DNA from: Hyphomicrobiales bacterium
GTDB lineage: Bacteria > Pseudomonadota > Alphaproteobacteria > Rhizobiales > Rhizobiaceae
Direction of reading: 5' to 3'
DNA: 64,000 nucleotides
Assembly: GCA_900466575.1 (NCBI GenBank)
Contig: UBMP01000001.1
Span: 124,001 to 188,000, forward strand
Shown: positions 57,699 to 64,000 of the stretch, one piece after another
Numbering within the stretch: position 1 is the first letter of the stretch
How the letters are laid out: every line of letters begins with the position of its first letter
Position numbers and translations under genes: made by a program
The notes under the pieces: generated by a model
The model's database searches: none
What the model saw: only the letters and a program-made list of their open reading frames with translations
Told to the model about the DNA's origin: nothing

Positions 57699-58640
57699 TC
57701 AGTTCAGCCCGAGCCGCTTCACCTTGCGATGCAGGGTGGCGCGGCTGATGCCGAGCGCTTCGGCCGTGCGCGACATGTTTCCGCCATTGCGGCTGATCGC
57801 ACGGCGCAGCGCCGCCCGTTCCGCTTCAAGAAGATCCGCCGAGCCCGTGGGCTCGCTTTCGTTCAGCAGATCGGCAGCCGGAATCCCCGCCGCAAGCCGG
57901 CCGTCGTCGAGACCCAGCGCCTGTCGTGCGCCGCGTGTCGCGCCCAGAACGATATCGTCGCGATCGACGGCCAGAAGCGCGCCATAGCCATTGCCCACCA
58001 TCACGATCCGCGCCAGCGGGAAGGCGCGGCGGAAGAGATTGCCCTCGATCCGCAAAGCGGCGTCGCGCACCGCATGGGAAAGGATTGTCATCGTCAGTTC
58101 GTTGGCATCGTCCCGGCAGGTCGAGAAATCGAGCACGCCGGATATGCGCGCCGTGTGGTCGCGGATGGGCGCCGCCGTGCAGCTCAGGCCCGTATTGGAG
58201 GACAGGAAATGCTGATCGCGACTGACAGTCGCCGCGCGCTGGTCGGCAAGTGCCGTACCGATGCCATTGGTTCCGACGCTCGCCTCGCTCCATACAGTAC
58301 CGGACCAGAGACCGACACCGCGAAACTCCTTCTCGTCACCGGCGGTTCCCCGACGGTCCAGCACGACACCGTTCCCGTCCGTCAGCAACAGCGAGTGGCC
58401 GGATCGCCCGGCCATCATGAACAGACGGTCGAGTTCATCGCGCGCCTCTTCCACCATGACCCGCGACCGCTCTGTCGCGTCGCGGAATTCCTGGTCTGTC
58501 AGCCGTGCGGGCGAAAGGTTCTGGTCCGGGCTGAGCTTGTGCACGTTCATGCATCTGAGCCAGGAAGCGGCAACCGGCGAACTCGCAGCCTGTGAAGACT
58601 TGCGCGCGAGTGAATATACCTTGTCTGCATGTTGTGTCAT
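57699..58640 (-). CDS. GAF-Fis (AcoR-like) regulator without the AAA+ sigma-54 domain
   Basis: A 313-residue protein: N-terminal linker, a GAF domain (about 60-200, LLLTDGNGVVLDRRG..GLWSGTVWSEASVGTNGIGTALADQRA, in pieces, with the SCTAAPIRD and SGVLDFS motifs found in AcoR-type regulators), a PAS-like segment (about 210-255) and a C-terminal Fis-type HTH (AERAALRRAISRNGGNMSRTAEALGISRATLHRKVKRLGL). The central AAA+ module of bacterial enhancer-binding proteins is wholly missing, so it cannot activate sigma-54 itself. Start at 58640; a longer TTG version is possible. Divergent from the region with the palindrome and sigma-54-like promoter. Confidence 0.82.
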   Translation of the reverse strand: MTQHADKVYSLARKSSQAASSPVAASWLRCMNVHKLSPDQNLSPARLTDQEFRDATERSRVMVEEARDELDRLFMMAGRSGHSLLLTDGNGVVLDRRGTAGDEKEFRGVGLWSGTVWSEASVGTNGIGTALADQRAATVSRDQHFLSSNTGLSCTAAPIRDHTARISGVLDFSTCRDDANELTMTILSHAVRDAALRIEGNLFRRAFPLARIVMVGNGYGALLAVDRDDIVLGATRGARQALGLDDGRLAAGIPAADLLNESEPTGSADLLEAERAALRRAISRNGGNMSRTAEALGISRATLHRKVKRLGLN

Positions 58641-58819
58641 GATCAGCTCAGCTCCTCCCAAAGCTCCTGCCCAGGTCTTGCGCGACGAGGTCCCGACTTA
58701 ATCCTCGGGGAAAATGCCGCATGATCCTGCAGGTCCGTGCCGATTACACGAAATCGTCGCCGAGAATGGCACGGTTCTTTGGCGAATGCATCAGGTCAAT
58801 TGATGGGGTCCCAGTGGAC

Positions 58820-59060: not shown

Positions 59061-59660
59061 ATGAGCCACGCTTCGTACGAGCTCAAGGCCGAAAAGCGCA
59101 ATCGGGCTGGTAAGGGGTCCTCCCGCGAACTGCGCCGCAACGGTCTTATTCCCGCAGTTATCTATGGCGACAAGCAGGCCCCGATTTCGATCGCTCTGTC
59201 GACCAATGAAGTCACGAAGAAGATCCACGCTGGCGGTTTCATGACCACCATCGCAACGATCGACGTCGAAGGCGAGAAGATCTCGGTTCTGCCGAAGGAT
59301 TACCAGCTGGATCCGGTCCGCGACTTCACCTTGCATGTCGACTTCCTCCGCGTCTCGGGCAACACCCAGGTCACGGTTGCCGTTCCGGTTCACTTCATCA
59401 ACCACGAGAAGTCTCCGGGCCTCAAGATCGGCGGCACGCTGAACGTCGTTCGCCACGAAGTGGAATTCCACTGCCCGGCCAACGCGATCCCGGAATTCAT
59501 CACGGCTGACCTCGAAGGCTTCAAGATCGGCGACGGTGTTCACATCTCGCACATCAAGCTTCCGGCAGGCGTCACGCCCGTCATCACCGACCGCGACTTC
59601 ACGATCGCCACGATCGCGACCCCGGCCGGCGGCGTCCAGGAAGAAACGACGGAAGCCTGA
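59061..59660 (+). CDS. rplY: 50S ribosomal protein L25 (CTC form)
   Basis: Binds 5S rRNA in the large subunit; this is the longer CTC type with a C-terminal extension. Start [36 protein letters not shown] is standard; the TL5-like second domain includes [27 protein letters not shown] and [24 protein letters not shown]. 199 aa. The ATG at 59061 has AAAGGA upstream. In many rhizobia pth follows directly; here three genes lie between. Confidence 0.96.
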
Positions 59661-59699
59661 TCGATTTTCGATCGCGCGTTCATCAATTCAGTTACGTGC

Positions 59700-59740
59700 A
59701 AGGCCCACTCTACAGAGATGTAGGTGGGCCTTACATTTTT
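59700..59740 (+). terminator. Intrinsic terminator of rplY
   Basis: AAGGCCCAC / GTGGGCCTT with an inner TACA/TGTA pairing, followed by ACATTTTT. It separates rplY from the downstream c-di-GMP module. Confidence 0.85.
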
Positions 59741-59843
59741 GCGCAATGCAAAAAATTTCAGTCCGATATTCAAGATCGGTTAAGGCCCACATGTAACATT
59801 AGCCGCTTCGTCGGGCGGATCGGCACGCTTACTTCAGGGCCTC

Positions 59844-62216
59844 ATGTACACCCACTCCGTAGAAAAACGATTTCTTTTGATCATCTGCGCGGCGGTTCTC
59901 ATCTTCGTGATGCCGCTGTTCGCGTTGTTTTTCTACCTTTCGGCCGAGCGCACGCTGAGCGAGCGCATGGAGCGGATCAATCTGACGATCTCGACCAATG
60001 CAAACGCGCTTGGCAAGCCGCTCTGGGACTTCGATGTCGACAGCGCGCGGAAGGTTGCCGCAGCGATCGCCGCCGGCGGTGAGATCGAGGCGGTTCACGT
60101 CCGCGACAACTCTGGATCGATCGAGATCAACAACCCGCCCTCCGGCACGAAACATCACGTGCCAACGCGGCGCTTCTCGACCCCGATCTACTACTCCTCC
60201 GTTGATGGTGAGAAATACGCCGGCACGCTGGAGATCGACGTCGACGATGGCGGCCTGATTTCGACGATCAAGGCCCGTGACGTGAGCTTCATGTTCATTT
60301 TCATCTTTGCAGTGGCGATCGTCTTCCTGGCGGCGCTGATTGCCAACCGGGTCATTGTCATCCGCCCTCTCCTCCGCCTGATCGACGCCGTCATCCGCAC
60401 ACGCAGAAGCGGCTATCGGCAGCGGGTCGATTGGCGCTCTCGGGACGAAATGGTTCTGCTCGCGGACAATTTCAACGAAATGCAGAGCGAACTGGCGCAT
60501 GAGGAAAGCGCGTTGAAGGCGGCACACGCGATGGTGCAGGCCGTCTACAACAAAACGCCGGCCATGCTCTACATGATCGACGCGGAGGGCAGGATCGCAG
60601 CTGTCTCCGACTACTGGATGCTCACCACCGGCTATTCCCGCGAGGAGGTGACCGGTCGTCAGTTCAGCGATTTCCTCACCAGTGGCGAAACCTGGACCCT
60701 CGGCCTCTACACGCAGCGCTCGGCGGCACCCGAAGCCGCAGGCAGAACCGTCAAGTTCCAATGCGCAAATGGCCGCATCATCGACGTGCTCATTCGGGAG
60801 ACGCCGATGAGCGATGACGCCGGGCGAACCAGCGCCCTCTGCGTGATGACCGATGTGACGGAACTGAAGGAAGCCGAAACCCGCAACCACCTCCAAGCGA
60901 TCACGGATCATCTGACCGGCCTTCTCAATCGCCAGGGCTTCGAAGCTGCGTTGGACGGCAAGATCATGGAGGCCGACAAACGCGGGCATCAGCTTGCCTG
61001 CCTCTTCGTTGACCTCGACCGTTTCAAGTGGATCAACGACAATCTGGGTCACGCGGCCGGCGACGAGGTCCTCAAGGAAGTCGTCAACCGCGCCGCCACG
61101 CAGTTGCGCCCATCCGATGTCATTGCGCGCCTCGGCGGCGACGAGTTCGCGATCCTCGTCTCCGCGCCGGACGCGGAGACCGTCGCGCGCGGTATTTCCG
61201 ATCGGATCAAGTCGATCTTCGCCAAGGCCTTCACACCCGAAGGCGCGAGCGTCACTTTAAGCGCCAGCATCGGGATTGCGCTTTATCCGCAGCATGCCGC
61301 CTCCGCCGCCGAACTGCTGCAGAAGTCGGACCTCGCCATGTACGCCCGCAAGCGCAACGGCAAGAACGGCACGGAGGTCTTTGCCGATTCCATGGCGGAC
61401 AATGCCCGCGAACGCGCCGAACTCGAGCGTTACATCAACGAAGCGCTGGAAAACGACTGGTTCGACGCCTGGCTGCAGCCGATCTGCGACCTGGAGACCG
61501 GCCGGCCGAAGAATTTCGAGGCCTTGATGCGCCTGCGCCATCCCGCACACGGGATCCTGCCGCCAGCGAAAATCATCGCCGTGGCGGAAGAGAACGGCAC
61601 GATCGAAGCGATCGGCAATGTGATCCTGAAGAAGGCTGTGACCTATCTCGCCCGGATCAGCGACATTCCCGGCTTCGAGAACGTCCGCATGTCGATCAAT
61701 TTCTCGCCGCTACAGCTCAACGCCGATCTCCTGGCGCGTATGTCGGACATCCTGATGAAATCCGGCATCCAGCCATCTCGCATCGTGCTCGAGATCACCG
61801 AAGCCGTGCTGATGCGCAACAATCCGGAGATCAACATGGTGCTGCGCGGATTGCGCGATTGCGGCATGTCGATCGCCCTCGATGACTTCGGCACCGGCTA
61901 TTCATCGTTGAGCTACCTGCATCGGTTTCCCGTCAATATCGTCAAGGTGGATCGCTCCTTTGTCGCCGCCCTTCACCCGGACAGCGCCGTCGAACGCGAC
62001 AAGGCCTATCTGCTGGTCCAGGGCATCAACACGATTGCCCAGCATCTTAACTGCAAGGTCGTGGCCGAAGGGATCGAGACGCCCAGTCAGCGGGAGATTC
62101 TGAAGGGCATGGGCATCCAGTTTGGCCAGGGTTATCTCTTCTCACGCCCCTTGAGCATCGACGACATCGAGCAGCTCTACAACCCGACCGGAGAGCGCGT
62201 GTCCGCACGCGGGTGA
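59844..62216 (+). CDS. GGDEF-EAL c-di-GMP enzyme with periplasmic sensor, HAMP and PAS
   Basis: 790 residues: TM1 (9-33), periplasmic domain (34-149), TM2 (150-171), HAMP (about 172-224), PAS (about 228-345), GGDEF domain with intact GGDEF (431-435) and an I-site RPSD (422-425), and an EAL domain with E559-A-L, INFSP, LEITE, DDFGTGYSS (680-688), KVDRSF and AEGIET, so both cyclase and phosphodiesterase sites look usable. The downstream solute-binding-protein gene begins at or close to its stop, which links the periplasmic sensor to a soluble partner. Function: sets c-di-GMP level in response to a periplasmic signal (inferred). Confidence 0.93.
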   Translation: MYTHSVEKRFLLIICAAVLIFVMPLFALFFYLSAERTLSERMERINLTISTNANALGKPLWDFDVDSARKVAAAIAAGGEIEAVHVRDNSGSIEINNPPSGTKHHVPTRRFSTPIYYSSVDGEKYAGTLEIDVDDGGLISTIKARDVSFMFIFIFAVAIVFLAALIANRVIVIRPLLRLIDAVIRTRRSGYRQRVDWRSRDEMVLLADNFNEMQSELAHEESALKAAHAMVQAVYNKTPAMLYMIDAEGRIAAVSDYWMLTTGYSREEVTGRQFSDFLTSGETWTLGLYTQRSAAPEAAGRTVKFQCANGRIIDVLIRETPMSDDAGRTSALCVMTDVTELKEAETRNHLQAITDHLTGLLNRQGFEAALDGKIMEADKRGHQLACLFVDLDRFKWINDNLGHAAGDEVLKEVVNRAATQLRPSDVIARLGGDEFAILVSAPDAETVARGISDRIKSIFAKAFTPEGASVTLSASIGIALYPQHAASAAELLQKSDLAMYARKRNGKNGTEVFADSMADNARERAELERYINEALENDWFDAWLQPICDLETGRPKNFEALMRLRHPAHGILPPAKIIAVAEENGTIEAIGNVILKKAVTYLARISDIPGFENVRMSINFSPLQLNADLLARMSDILMKSGIQPSRIVLEITEAVLMRNNPEINMVLRGLRDCGMSIALDDFGTGYSSLSYLHRFPVNIVKVDRSFVAALHPDSAVERDKAYLLVQGINTIAQHLNCKVVAEGIETPSQREILKGMGIQFGQGYLFSRPLSIDDIEQLYNPTGERVSARG

Positions 62217-62236
62217 ACGACAGGAATAACAAATCG

Positions 62237-62980
62237 ATGCAATTCACCCCCGCCTTGCTGCGCCTGGTGTTTGTCCTGGCGTCGGCGACCAGCGCTGCGA
62301 ACGCCGCGGAAATCCACTTCGTGACCGAGAACTATCCGCCCTTCAATTACCTTGAGGACGGGCAGATAAAGGGCATGTCGATGGATCAGGTGAAGCTGAT
62401 CATGAAGAACGCGAAGATCAGTTATTCCGTCGAGATCATGCCTTGGGCGCGCGCCTTGGCGCTGGCCGAAATCGAGAAGGATTTCTGCGTTTTCACTGCG
62501 GTTCACAACGCTGAGCGCGACCGGAAATTCAAGTGGGTCGAGCCGCTGTCGAGGAGCCGGACACTTCTGGTCCGCAAGGCCGGTTCGCACGTTGCACCGG
62601 GGACACTCGATGAGGCAAAGGCCTTCACGATCGGCACACAGCGCGGGGATTTCACCCACGATATCCTGAAAAACTACAACTTCCCGAAGATCGATCTGGC
62701 AACCGATCTTGATCTCAGCCTGAAGAAGCTGATGAGTGGGCGCATCGATCTCATGCCGATCTCGGAAAAATATTACGAGAAGCTGAAACGTGATGGCGCT
62801 GAAATCGAATCTGTGCTCACATTCTCCGAGAGCACATACTCCATCGCCTGCAACCGGGGCGTTCCCGACACGACGATCTCCACCATGCAGCAGGAACTGA
62901 ACAGGTTGATAGCCGACGGCACACAGCAGCAGATCAGCAATGCAAATAGCATCGCTGCGGACAAGAGCGCATCTCGCTAA
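62237..62980 (+). CDS. Periplasmic solute-binding protein (SBP_bac_3-like), copy 1
   Basis: A 247-residue exported protein: signal peptide (FTPALLRLVFVLASATSAANA) and a family-3-like binding domain starting EIHFVTENYPPFNYLEDGQIKGMSMDQ, with MPWARALALAEIEKDFCVFTAVHNAERDRKFKWVEPL. No permease or ATPase gene is nearby, so a sensing role with the upstream GGDEF-EAL protein is more likely than transport. The 62237 ATG is preferred; a GTG at 62213 overlaps the preceding stop. Two Cys (near 92 and 213, as CVF and IACNRG) are shared with the next protein. Confidence 0.8.
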   Translation: MQFTPALLRLVFVLASATSAANAAEIHFVTENYPPFNYLEDGQIKGMSMDQVKLIMKNAKISYSVEIMPWARALALAEIEKDFCVFTAVHNAERDRKFKWVEPLSRSRTLLVRKAGSHVAPGTLDEAKAFTIGTQRGDFTHDILKNYNFPKIDLATDLDLSLKKLMSGRIDLMPISEKYYEKLKRDGAEIESVLTFSESTYSIACNRGVPDTTISTMQQELNRLIADGTQQQISNANSIAADKSASR

Positions 62981-63015
62981 GCGATCGCATGAAACTGGCT
63001 CGCATGAGGTCATGC

Positions 63016-63807
63016 ATGATGACAGCGCACCTCGGACATAACCACAAGCGAAAGGCCGGCAGGCTTGTCCGCCAGCTCTGTCTGGCAGCGTTCTGCTCGG
63101 CCCTGGGATACCCGGCCCATGGCGAAACGCTGGAATTGCTGACGGAGTCTTATCCGCCATACAGTTACCAGGAGGACGGTGTTCTGAAGGGCATCGCCGT
63201 CGACCTCGTCAAGGCGGTCATGGCCGATGCAGGCATCGACTATGACATGAAGATCCGGCCCTGGGCGCGCGCCTACGGTCTCGCCCTGAACACCCCAGGC
63301 CACTGCGTCTTCTCCACGGTCCATACGCCGGAACGCGACGTGCTGTTCGAATGGGTCGAACCGCTCTTCAGCACCGAACAATATCTGGTGCGCAAGACCG
63401 GCTCGAACGTCAATCCCGCCAATCTCGATGACGCCAAGCACTATCTCGTCGGTACGCAACTGGGCGATTATACGGAAGGTCTGCTCAAGCAGGCCGGTTT
63501 CAACCGAGTGGACCTGACGTCCGAGATCGATCTCACCGTCAAGAAACTTCTGGCGGGACGCATCGACCTGATGCCTATGGCCGCGTCCATGGTGAGGGAT
63601 CTCCAGAAGAAAGCCGTCGCAGTCGAGCCGGCGGTCATACTTACCCGGAGCGTCGACTCGCTGGCCTGCAACAGGGACACGCCGCCGGAAACGCTGGAGC
63701 GGATGCGCAACAGTCTGAAGCAGCTTACCGAAGATGGCACTCGAGCGGGTATCTTTCAGCGCTACAAATTCGTTGAAGGTGGGCTCCTCCCCCCGTCAAA
63801 GCCCTGA
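63016..63807 (+). CDS. Periplasmic solute-binding protein (SBP_bac_3-like), copy 2
   Basis: A paralogue of the preceding protein, with the same landmarks: TLELLTESYPPYSYQEDGVLKGIAVDLVKAVM, RPWARAYGLALNTPGHCVFSTVHTPERDVLFEWVEPL, VKKLLAGRIDLMP and SLACNRDTPPE, including both Cys. A signal peptide follows a long basic N-region (KRKAGRLVRQLCLAAFCSALGYPAHG). GAGGT precedes the ATG at 63016; an in-frame ATG at 62989 is an alternative. The two share motifs but are well diverged, so duplication is old. Same operon as copy 1. Confidence 0.78.
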   Translation: MMTAHLGHNHKRKAGRLVRQLCLAAFCSALGYPAHGETLELLTESYPPYSYQEDGVLKGIAVDLVKAVMADAGIDYDMKIRPWARAYGLALNTPGHCVFSTVHTPERDVLFEWVEPLFSTEQYLVRKTGSNVNPANLDDAKHYLVGTQLGDYTEGLLKQAGFNRVDLTSEIDLTVKKLLAGRIDLMPMAASMVRDLQKKAVAVEPAVILTRSVDSLACNRDTPPETLERMRNSLKQLTEDGTRAGIFQRYKFVEGGLLPPSKP

Positions 63808-63872: not shown

Positions 63873-64000
63873 ATGAAAATCATCGTCGGCCTCGGTAATC
63901 CCGGCCCGAAATATGCGTTCAACCGCCACAATATCGGCTTTATGGCCGTCGATGCGCTGCATCGGAAACACCCTTTCGGTCCGTGGTCCAAGAAGTTCAA
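63873..64000 (+). CDS. pth: Peptidyl-tRNA hydrolase, N-terminal part (cut by window end)
   Basis: The first 42 codons read [20 protein letters not shown] and [11 protein letters not shown], the canonical Pth opening with the catalytic His in NRHNIGF. The enzyme frees stalled peptidyl-tRNA. Recognition is firm even though the gene runs off the window. In rhizobia it normally follows rplY. Confidence 0.93.

Follow-up and report, generated by a model that had tools for sequence, protein, structure and literature searches.

The locus considered here raises the question of what two solute-binding proteins (SBPs) do when their genes directly follow that of an enzyme of cyclic dimeric guanosine monophosphate (c-di-GMP) turnover and are accompanied by no transporter gene. 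It lies in a 64,000-nucleotide (nt) stretch of DNA from a Hyphomicrobiales bacterium of the Rhizobiaceae (assembly GCA_900466575.1, contig UBMP01000001.1, positions 124,001-188,000), which as a whole is called the window below. An earlier note, made from the sequence, had described at positions 59844-63807 of the window a GGDEF-EAL enzyme and two SBPs, with no permease, between rplY and pth, and the open reading frames (ORFs) and Pfam matches agree with that description. What the note did not contain is that one SBP is the usual state of this block of genes and that two are a lineage-specific addition. The answer proposed here is that the SBPs are probably ligand-sensing subunits of the enzyme, with which they would form a transporter-less signalling unit, and that the second SBP adds to or changes the input.

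In the proposed mechanism, a protein of the SBP_bac_3 family would bind a small molecule in the periplasm and, in either its loaded or its empty form, would dock on the CHASE5-like periplasmic domain of the enzyme. The resulting change would pass through the second transmembrane (TM) helix and the HAMP and PAS domains, and would shift the balance between synthesis and breakdown of c-di-GMP. The second SBP present in the genus of the window, and separately in a Pararhizobium/Rhizobium herbae group, would most likely make the enzyme responsive to a further ligand or change how it responds. The computed basis of this proposal consists of intact catalytic sites, the SBP fold, the missing permease, linkage, co-occurrence, the tracking of divergence and the existence of related pairs. 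Export, direct contact between SBP and sensor, ligand binding and the direction of control are steps that we infer from the sequences.

Linkage to rplY and pth and the absence of transporter genes

Both partners were searched for in 297 genomes that sample the family evenly. Proteins like SBP1, the first of the two SBPs, occur in 59 of these genomes (E<=1e-20), and the sensor query, which consists of the first 221 residues of the enzyme (E<=1e-10), finds 63, among which all 59 SBP-holding genomes are included. In each of the 59, that of the window included, rplY, enzyme, SBP and pth follow one another in this order on one strand, with a relative of rplY adjoining the block; the similarity search for neighbouring genes covered only rplY, the enzyme, the SBPs, pth and a single regulator. 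The signals sensed by most c-di-GMP enzymes are unknown, and the compact pair is kept here by genomes that include genera known for plant symbionts, with a ligand-binding part that is probably a soluble protein amenable to purification and screening. The earlier note had also held that the block splits an rplY-pth pair, and this is borne out by genomes in which the block is absent. A search for pth in 41 genomes found it in 40, and 30 loci were kept, 10 of them from block-holding genomes; at all 20 loci without the block, rplY and pth share a strand and are no more than about 530 nt apart, which supports the conclusion that the block was inserted into, or lost from, an otherwise adjacent pair.

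A scan of species genomes with the sensor alignment found 402 relatives, and the 80 best of them were retained as named loci; weaker matches could hold other arrangements. These 80, which were retrieved by the sensor and not by the SBP, come from Rhizobium, Sinorhizobium, Ensifer, Shinella, Pararhizobium, Mycoplana and other organisms. An SBP adjoins the enzyme in every one of them: 71 have a single SBP at rplY-pth and 7 have two, all 78 with the gene order and the single strand seen in the family sample, and the remaining 2 are pairs of enzyme and SBP located elsewhere in Sinorhizobium. In the family sample, three genomes of genus g61 likewise carry an extra enzyme and SBP pair away from rplY-pth. 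At L047, L049, L050, L138 and L150 (g61 genomes and Sinorhizobium contigs), neither rplY nor pth was found adjoining such a pair; at L047, L049 and L150 the pair adjoins an oppositely directed GGDEF-EAL gene, and the enzyme frame of L049 is interrupted.

The genome of the window contains 10 matches to SBP_bac_3 and 122 to the permease family BPD_transp_1 (one of these below the cut-off). The 8 SBP_bac_3 genes outside the block serve as a control, and for 7 of them a BPD_transp_1 match lies no more than about 1.1 kb away, while the nearest such match on the contig of the block is about 66 kb from SBP1. The one control gene with no permease match nearby (L007:1486-2358, minus strand, in G000 C34) is situated between two membrane-protein genes and a glycosyltransferase-like gene, as judged by eye. 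Across the 59 family genomes the distance from the end of the SBP gene to the start of pth is 54-357 nt (median 90), and that from the enzyme stop codon to the start of the mature SBP, signal peptide included, is 50-283 nt (median 89). None of the 59 thus has room for a permease or an ATPase gene in the gaps that separate these four genes, ATPases not having been searched for by themselves. Assignment of the locus to the amino-acid ATP-binding cassette (ABC) importers was rejected, since the permease and ATPase genes that accompany the SBP in such importers are missing from it. The earlier note had named an association of these SBPs with permease genes in other genomes as evidence that would speak against it, and no such association was seen, the gaps being too short in every case.

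Orphan SBPs can nevertheless serve remote permeases, and SBP_bac_3 is a family of amino-acid transporter SBPs, so the two proteins might be subunits of a distant ABC transporter that are carried as passengers in the operon of the enzyme. We regard this as very unlikely in view of the linkage in 59 of 59 genomes, of the way in which SBP divergence follows the sensor and the TM/HAMP region, and of the related SBPs that are paired with chemoreceptors and kinases, the last two of which are described in the next section.

The pairing of sensor and binding protein

The enzyme consists, from its N to its C terminus, of a TM helix, a periplasmic sensor of about 115 residues, a second TM helix, and HAMP, PAS, GGDEF and EAL domains; hydrophobic stretches and the helices of a structure model, inspected by eye, gave the edges of the TM and sensor segments. 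Pfam recognizes the EAL (5.9e-63), GGDEF (4.7e-42) and PAS (1.1e-10) domains, and a HAMP match is present in all 46 sensor rows at E<=0.5 (alignment A1, which contains 46 of 62 sensors). CHASE5 (PF17149) matches the enzyme of the window at 13.5 bits (E 0.072), under its 27-bit cut-off, and matches 32 of the 46 sensor members at E<=0.5, the best at 4.9e-5. Among the 25 best NCBIfam matches listed for the enzyme there is no equivalog above the cut-off, and there is none for SBP1 or SBP2. All 61 readable enzymes of the family retain the GGDEF motif and the EAL positions that we take to be catalytic. The gap in the remaining one of the 62 rows is L049 (the second copy of G065, with an enzyme frame of 400 aa), which was also left out of the enzyme tree. 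The I-site is more variable: its arginine is R in 35 of the 62 rows and its aspartate is D in 55, one row being a gap.

The divergence of the SBPs was compared with that of each part of the enzyme by partial rank correlation of distances, conditioned on rplY, pth and the other enzyme parts. At 53 single-SBP loci the correlation is 0.29 with the sensor and 0.33 with the TM/HAMP region, values that were reached in 0 of 300 permutations each; it is 0.10 with PAS (19 of 300 permutations as high) and -0.10 with GGDEF-EAL (277 of 300). SBP divergence therefore appears to track the periplasmic and TM/HAMP parts of the enzyme, and not its GGDEF-EAL part.

Similar sensors are also coupled to other outputs. 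In a sample of the class, the sensor profile finds 36 of 385 genomes, the window's own included. A similar SBP lies within 1.5 kb at 4 of the 29 sensor loci beyond that of the window, and this is the unselected figure for an SBP beside a distant sensor. Two of the four sensors (L236 and L238, seen again in wider stretches as L255 and L260) belong to chemoreceptors, one (L222, seen as L251) to a hybrid histidine kinase with a divergent SBP gene, and one (L219, seen as L248) is cut off by the end of its contig. In the family sample, a remote relative of the sensor in G105 is part of a hybrid kinase away from rplY-pth and is preceded by an SBP 27% identical to SBP2. The earlier note's proposal that the SBPs belong to the enzyme is thus upheld on several counts: the linkage, the co-occurrence, the lack of a permease, the divergence that follows the sensor and the TM/HAMP region but not GGDEF-EAL, and these related pairs with other outputs.

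A further pair was seen in G031, from another family of the order, in which a chemoreceptor gene overlaps an SBP gene by 59 nt as listed (L045:6486-8910), beside genes resembling pst, phoU and phoB (named by eye from their translations). The SBP is 42% identical to SBP1, and the periplasmic part of the chemoreceptor carries the same LWxFD motif. Against the sensor profile the whole chemoreceptor scores 8.7 bits, which is not significant, and its first 235 residues score 24.7 bits with filters off; hhalign gives E 2e-5 for that pair alone, with a probability of 76%. Kinship of this chemoreceptor's sensor with that of the enzyme is likely, though not sure.

Several observations weigh against a partnership of SBP and enzyme, and some of them favour the different reading that the sensor binds a ligand of its own while the SBPs act separately, for example as scavengers. 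Direct ligand binding is common among domains of the CHASE and CACHE types. No SBP lies within 1.5 kb of 25 of the 29 distant sensors, although an SBP gene that follows a long enzyme gene would lie beyond this distance. In 20 wider stretches, picked mostly by score (L255 and L260 were picked for their known SBP, and L248 and L251 were also known to be SBP-positive), an SBP was found in the same four places and in none of the other 16. Natural variants without an SBP exist as well: G112 (L099) and G276 (L100) retain rplY, enzyme and pth with no SBP of the family, and G180 has a weaker enzyme relative between rplY and pth, again with no SBP. The correlations are modest, the TM/HAMP region scores as high as the sensor itself, the raw correlations of SBP distances with rplY (0.46) and pth (0.48) are substantial, and the structure model of the sensor is poor (predicted local distance difference test score, pLDDT, 75.5; predicted template modelling score, pTM, 0.47). 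A sensor that works alone is nonetheless quite unlikely, given that the 59 genomes with the SBP all fall within the 63 with the sensor and that a partial correlation of 0.29 connects the two.

Two entries match the sensor model, low-confidence as it is, at E<=0.001: an integrative model of WalK and, ranked second, 4u64 (E 5.8e-4), a periplasmic domain of the LapD type. In LapD, a receptor with degenerate sites, signalling runs inside out, and the possibly related periplasmic fold within a GGDEF-EAL protein gives some colour to a scheme in which the enzyme reads or sets cytoplasmic c-di-GMP while its periplasmic domain holds or releases the SBPs. We consider control in this direction highly improbable: the model is weak, there is no other gene in the interval, and the GGDEF and EAL residues are intact throughout, unlike those of the catalytically dead LapD. 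Classification as a LapD-type receptor was rejected on the same ground, the degenerate sites of such receptors being absent.

If the SBPs are ligand-sensing subunits of the enzyme, as we prefer to think, their working mode is best read by analogy with two characterized systems. In NspS-MbaA, as described in two reports (PMC8967002, PMC9993111), a transporter-less SBP whose gene adjoins that of a GGDEF-EAL enzyme with a periplasmic domain sets the balance between cyclase and phosphodiesterase; the system is known in Vibrio cholerae and also in Sinorhizobium meliloti (smc00991-smc00992). The present locus resembles it in that a GGDEF-EAL enzyme with a periplasmic domain adjoins an SBP with no permease. 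It differs in SBP family, since NspS is a PotD/PotF-like, polyamine-binding protein whereas the SBPs here match SBP_bac_3 only (E<=0.1) and have mostly amino-acid SBPs as their nearest structures. It differs also in gene order, nspS being upstream of and overlapping mbaA in V. cholerae whereas here the SBP gene follows the enzyme gene in all 59 genomes, and in number, NspS-MbaA having one SBP and the window two. Membership in the NspS-MbaA system was rejected because of SBP family and gene order, and the comparison drawn by the earlier note consequently holds as a working analogy but not as far as these two features are concerned. In ScrABC of Vibrio parahaemolyticus, ScrB together with a signal interacts with the GGDEF-EAL protein ScrC and turns it from cyclase to phosphodiesterase (PMC11315295). 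This system shares with the present one the pairing of a periplasmic binding protein with a GGDEF-EAL enzyme. Its operon also holds the signal-making aminotransferase ScrA, whereas no further gene is present between rplY and pth, and the absence of such a gene from the block led to rejection of membership here too.

Related principles are known more widely. The stimulation of receptors by loaded SBPs has been called a general and widespread mechanism (PMC9602780). The L-arginine response of Salmonella requires a putative arginine-binding periplasmic protein, ArtI, together with the periplasmic domain of STM1987 (PMC8846402, a review). According to the same review, studies of c-di-GMP networks cover, within the PBP clan, SBP_bac_3 only, as a domain of RmcA. 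In RmcA, then, SBP_bac_3 is a domain, whereas here it is a separate protein; and the sensor of STM1987 is dCACHE_1, whereas here it is CHASE5-like. The artI gene is unlinked to STM1987, and its product serves a transporter. No description of the rplY-pth block was found in the open literature searched, most subscription journals being outside that search. The block is accordingly best placed as a conserved unit of the SBP-gated c-di-GMP kind, a kind already known; the unusual part of the block is its lineage-specific form with two SBPs.

The second binding protein

Both small proteins match SBP_bac_3 (PF00497) at 50.3 and 56.1 bits (cut-off 26.4), and SBP1 and SBP2 are 43% identical over 231 columns. 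Their N-termini resemble Sec signal peptides, and both are probably exported. The model of SBP1 (pLDDT 95) predicts the two-lobed SBP fold, with GlnP, ArtJ, an ancestral arginine-binding protein and other amino-acid SBPs as its nearest folds.

The earlier note had called two SBPs for one enzyme unusual, and the counts agree with it. All 6 genomes of the window's genus carry the tandem pair, and no other of the 59 holder genomes in the family sample has one. Of the 7 tandem loci among the best 80 of 402 named loci, 4 come from genomes of the window's genus that the count above includes; the others are Rhizobium herbae DSM 26427 (L140), isolate AFS073149 (L141) and Pararhizobium antarcticum (L186).

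Residues of the SBPs are given in the mature numbering of SBP1, and positions 71, 116 and 153 were placed by alignment to AncQR. By reference to LAO-type structures, we take position 153 to be that of the aspartate which holds the alpha-amine in amino-acid SBPs, position 116 that of a threonine at the carboxylate, and position 71 that of the carboxylate-binding arginine. Among the residues invariant in 53 aligned SBPs (alignment A2, drawn from 69) are E8, Y10, W47, R49, C61, R71, D115 and C182; in a larger set E8 and Y10 are unaligned in copy 1 of L186. Because the carboxylate-binding arginine is invariant, the ligand probably carries a carboxylate. An ordinary alpha-amino acid bound in the ordinary way is unlikely, because the position of the alpha-amine aspartate is occupied by serine (alanine in SBP2). 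The two cysteines (61 and 182), found in 53 of 53 SBPs, may have a disulphide or redox role.

In the window's genus, SBP1 has Q28, R113, S153, Q195 and Q207 in 6 of 6 species, which are the commonest states of the family, and SBP2 has L28, L113, Y116 and A153, also in 6 of 6. Among 71 single-copy SBP rows, which include two identical pairs, Q28 is present in 67, R113 in 64 and S153 in 61. Position 116 is F in five of the six SBP1 proteins of the genus and V in one; it is F in 37 and Y in 23 of the single-copy rows, so that Y116 is unremarkable by itself. In the R. herbae/Pararhizobium lineage, copy 2 has S116 and T153 (3 of 3), and copy 1 has F, F and L at 116 and S in all three at 153. Second copies therefore appear to depart from first copies at predicted ligand-cleft positions. 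Since the invariant core is kept while the cleft positions differ, the second SBP most likely provides another ligand or modifies the response; a single enzyme may thus read two chemical cues.

A different role for SBP2 would be that of a ligand-blind, constant competitor or set-point partner, which occupies the sensor and dampens or biases the effect of SBP1. Its L113 and A153, in place of the R and S of most single-copy rows, and the long stem of SBP2 in the tree described below would fit such a role. It is unlikely, since every one of the six SBP2 copies of the genus retains E8, Y10, W47, R49, R71 and D115, which would be unusual for a disused pocket, and since the second copies of the other lineage carry T153 and not A, while A153 also occurs in 2 of the 71 single-copy rows.

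The trees were built from open frames trimmed to a set length, not from curated starts. In the SBP tree, SBP1 of five species of the genus joins the single SBPs of other genera (support 96/80), the six SBP2 proteins group together on a long stem (100/99), and the whole set falls in a clade of 17 rows (95/86). The enzyme tree, made by a quick method, groups the window's genus with the same other genera (SH-like approximate likelihood ratio test, SH-aLRT, 96). SBP1 of the sixth species, G003, is on a long branch of unsure place and keeps the SBP1 states at 28, 113 and 153. Duplication of SBP1 and SBP2 within the genus is neither shown nor rejected by the approximately unbiased (AU) test (p 0.49). 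In a second SBP tree, to which the SBPs of 18 of the 80 named loci contributed and from which L045 was left out, the second copies of L140, L141 and L186 fall near SBPs of other lineages (SH-aLRT 97 and 81). A single origin of all second copies was rejected (AU p 0.011), a value that is indicative because the group was named after the tree had been seen. On the evidence of these trees, the two-SBP form arose at least twice in the family.

Three points weigh against the reading of the second copies given above. The AU test was applied to a group chosen from the tree itself; T153 also occurs in 6 of the 71 single-copy rows; and the second copies outside the genus, since they group with SBPs of other lineages, may have differed already when they were acquired, instead of arising by duplication in place.

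The tandem form poses the testable question of whether one enzyme weighs two cues through two competing binding proteins. Opposite or graded input from the two SBPs is possible. It is a tentative idea, somewhat doubtful in our judgement, that two SBPs of different specificity compete for the one sensor of a bifunctional enzyme, so that the ratio of two outside compounds sets cyclase against phosphodiesterase activity, and that such an arrangement arose at least twice. The Trg chemoreceptor, which is fed by ribose- and galactose-binding proteins, offers a parallel, in that two different SBPs feed one receptor. The SBPs of Trg are shared with transporters and are not encoded with the receptor, and its output is chemotaxis, unlike that of the c-di-GMP enzyme here.

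Layout of the locus and its neighbours

Features of the block and its flanks (window coordinates)
Feature	Position	Strand	Basis or remark
rplY (ribosomal protein L25), left neighbour	59061..59660	+	ORF listed from TTG 59046, ATG at 59061
Hairpin and T run, probable rplY terminator	59696..59741	+	Minimum free energy (MFE)
GGDEF-EAL enzyme, 790 aa	59844..62216	+	ORF, Pfam
Periplasmic sensor, about residues 31-146, CHASE5-like, KPLWDxD motif	59934..60281	+	Profile matches, model
HAMP, residues 172-217	60357..60494	+	24.1 bits, just below 25-bit cut-off
PAS, residues 230-342	60531..60869	+	Pfam
GGDEF domain, GGDEF motif and RxxD I-site	60897..61367	+	Pfam, alignment
EAL domain, catalytic residues intact	61434..62150	+	Pfam, alignment
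SBP1, probably exported SBP_bac_3 protein, conserved copy, 255 aa from GTG	62213..62980	+	Pfam, alignment
SBP2, probably exported SBP_bac_3 protein, derived copy, 272 aa, start codon uncertain	62989..63807	+	Pfam, alignment
pth (peptidyl-tRNA hydrolase) start, right neighbour, runs past window end	63873..64000	+	

The GTG start of SBP1 overlaps the enzyme stop codon, and an ATG at 62237 is the likelier start, since it gives a cleaner signal peptide. A consensus scan found no sigma-70-type promoter for the block and did not list the rplY hairpin, perhaps because its stem is interrupted. The fold of 59696-59752 has an MFE of -28.1 kcal/mol (z -5.6; 0 of 200 shuffles equally stable). Because of this hairpin and T run 3' of rplY, the block is probably transcribed on its own, apart from rplY.

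To the left of rplY and divergent from it, the window encodes at 57699-58661 (minus strand) a protein like the AcoR-type regulators, with a GAF-like part and a Fis-type helix-turn-helix recognized by eye, and a gene of this kind is present at the same place in many relatives. In many relatives, among them L042, L043, L053, L057, L066, L074 and L080, another GGDEF-EAL gene (26-36% identical) is situated upstream of rplY on the opposite strand, and rplY is thus flanked there by two c-di-GMP enzymes.

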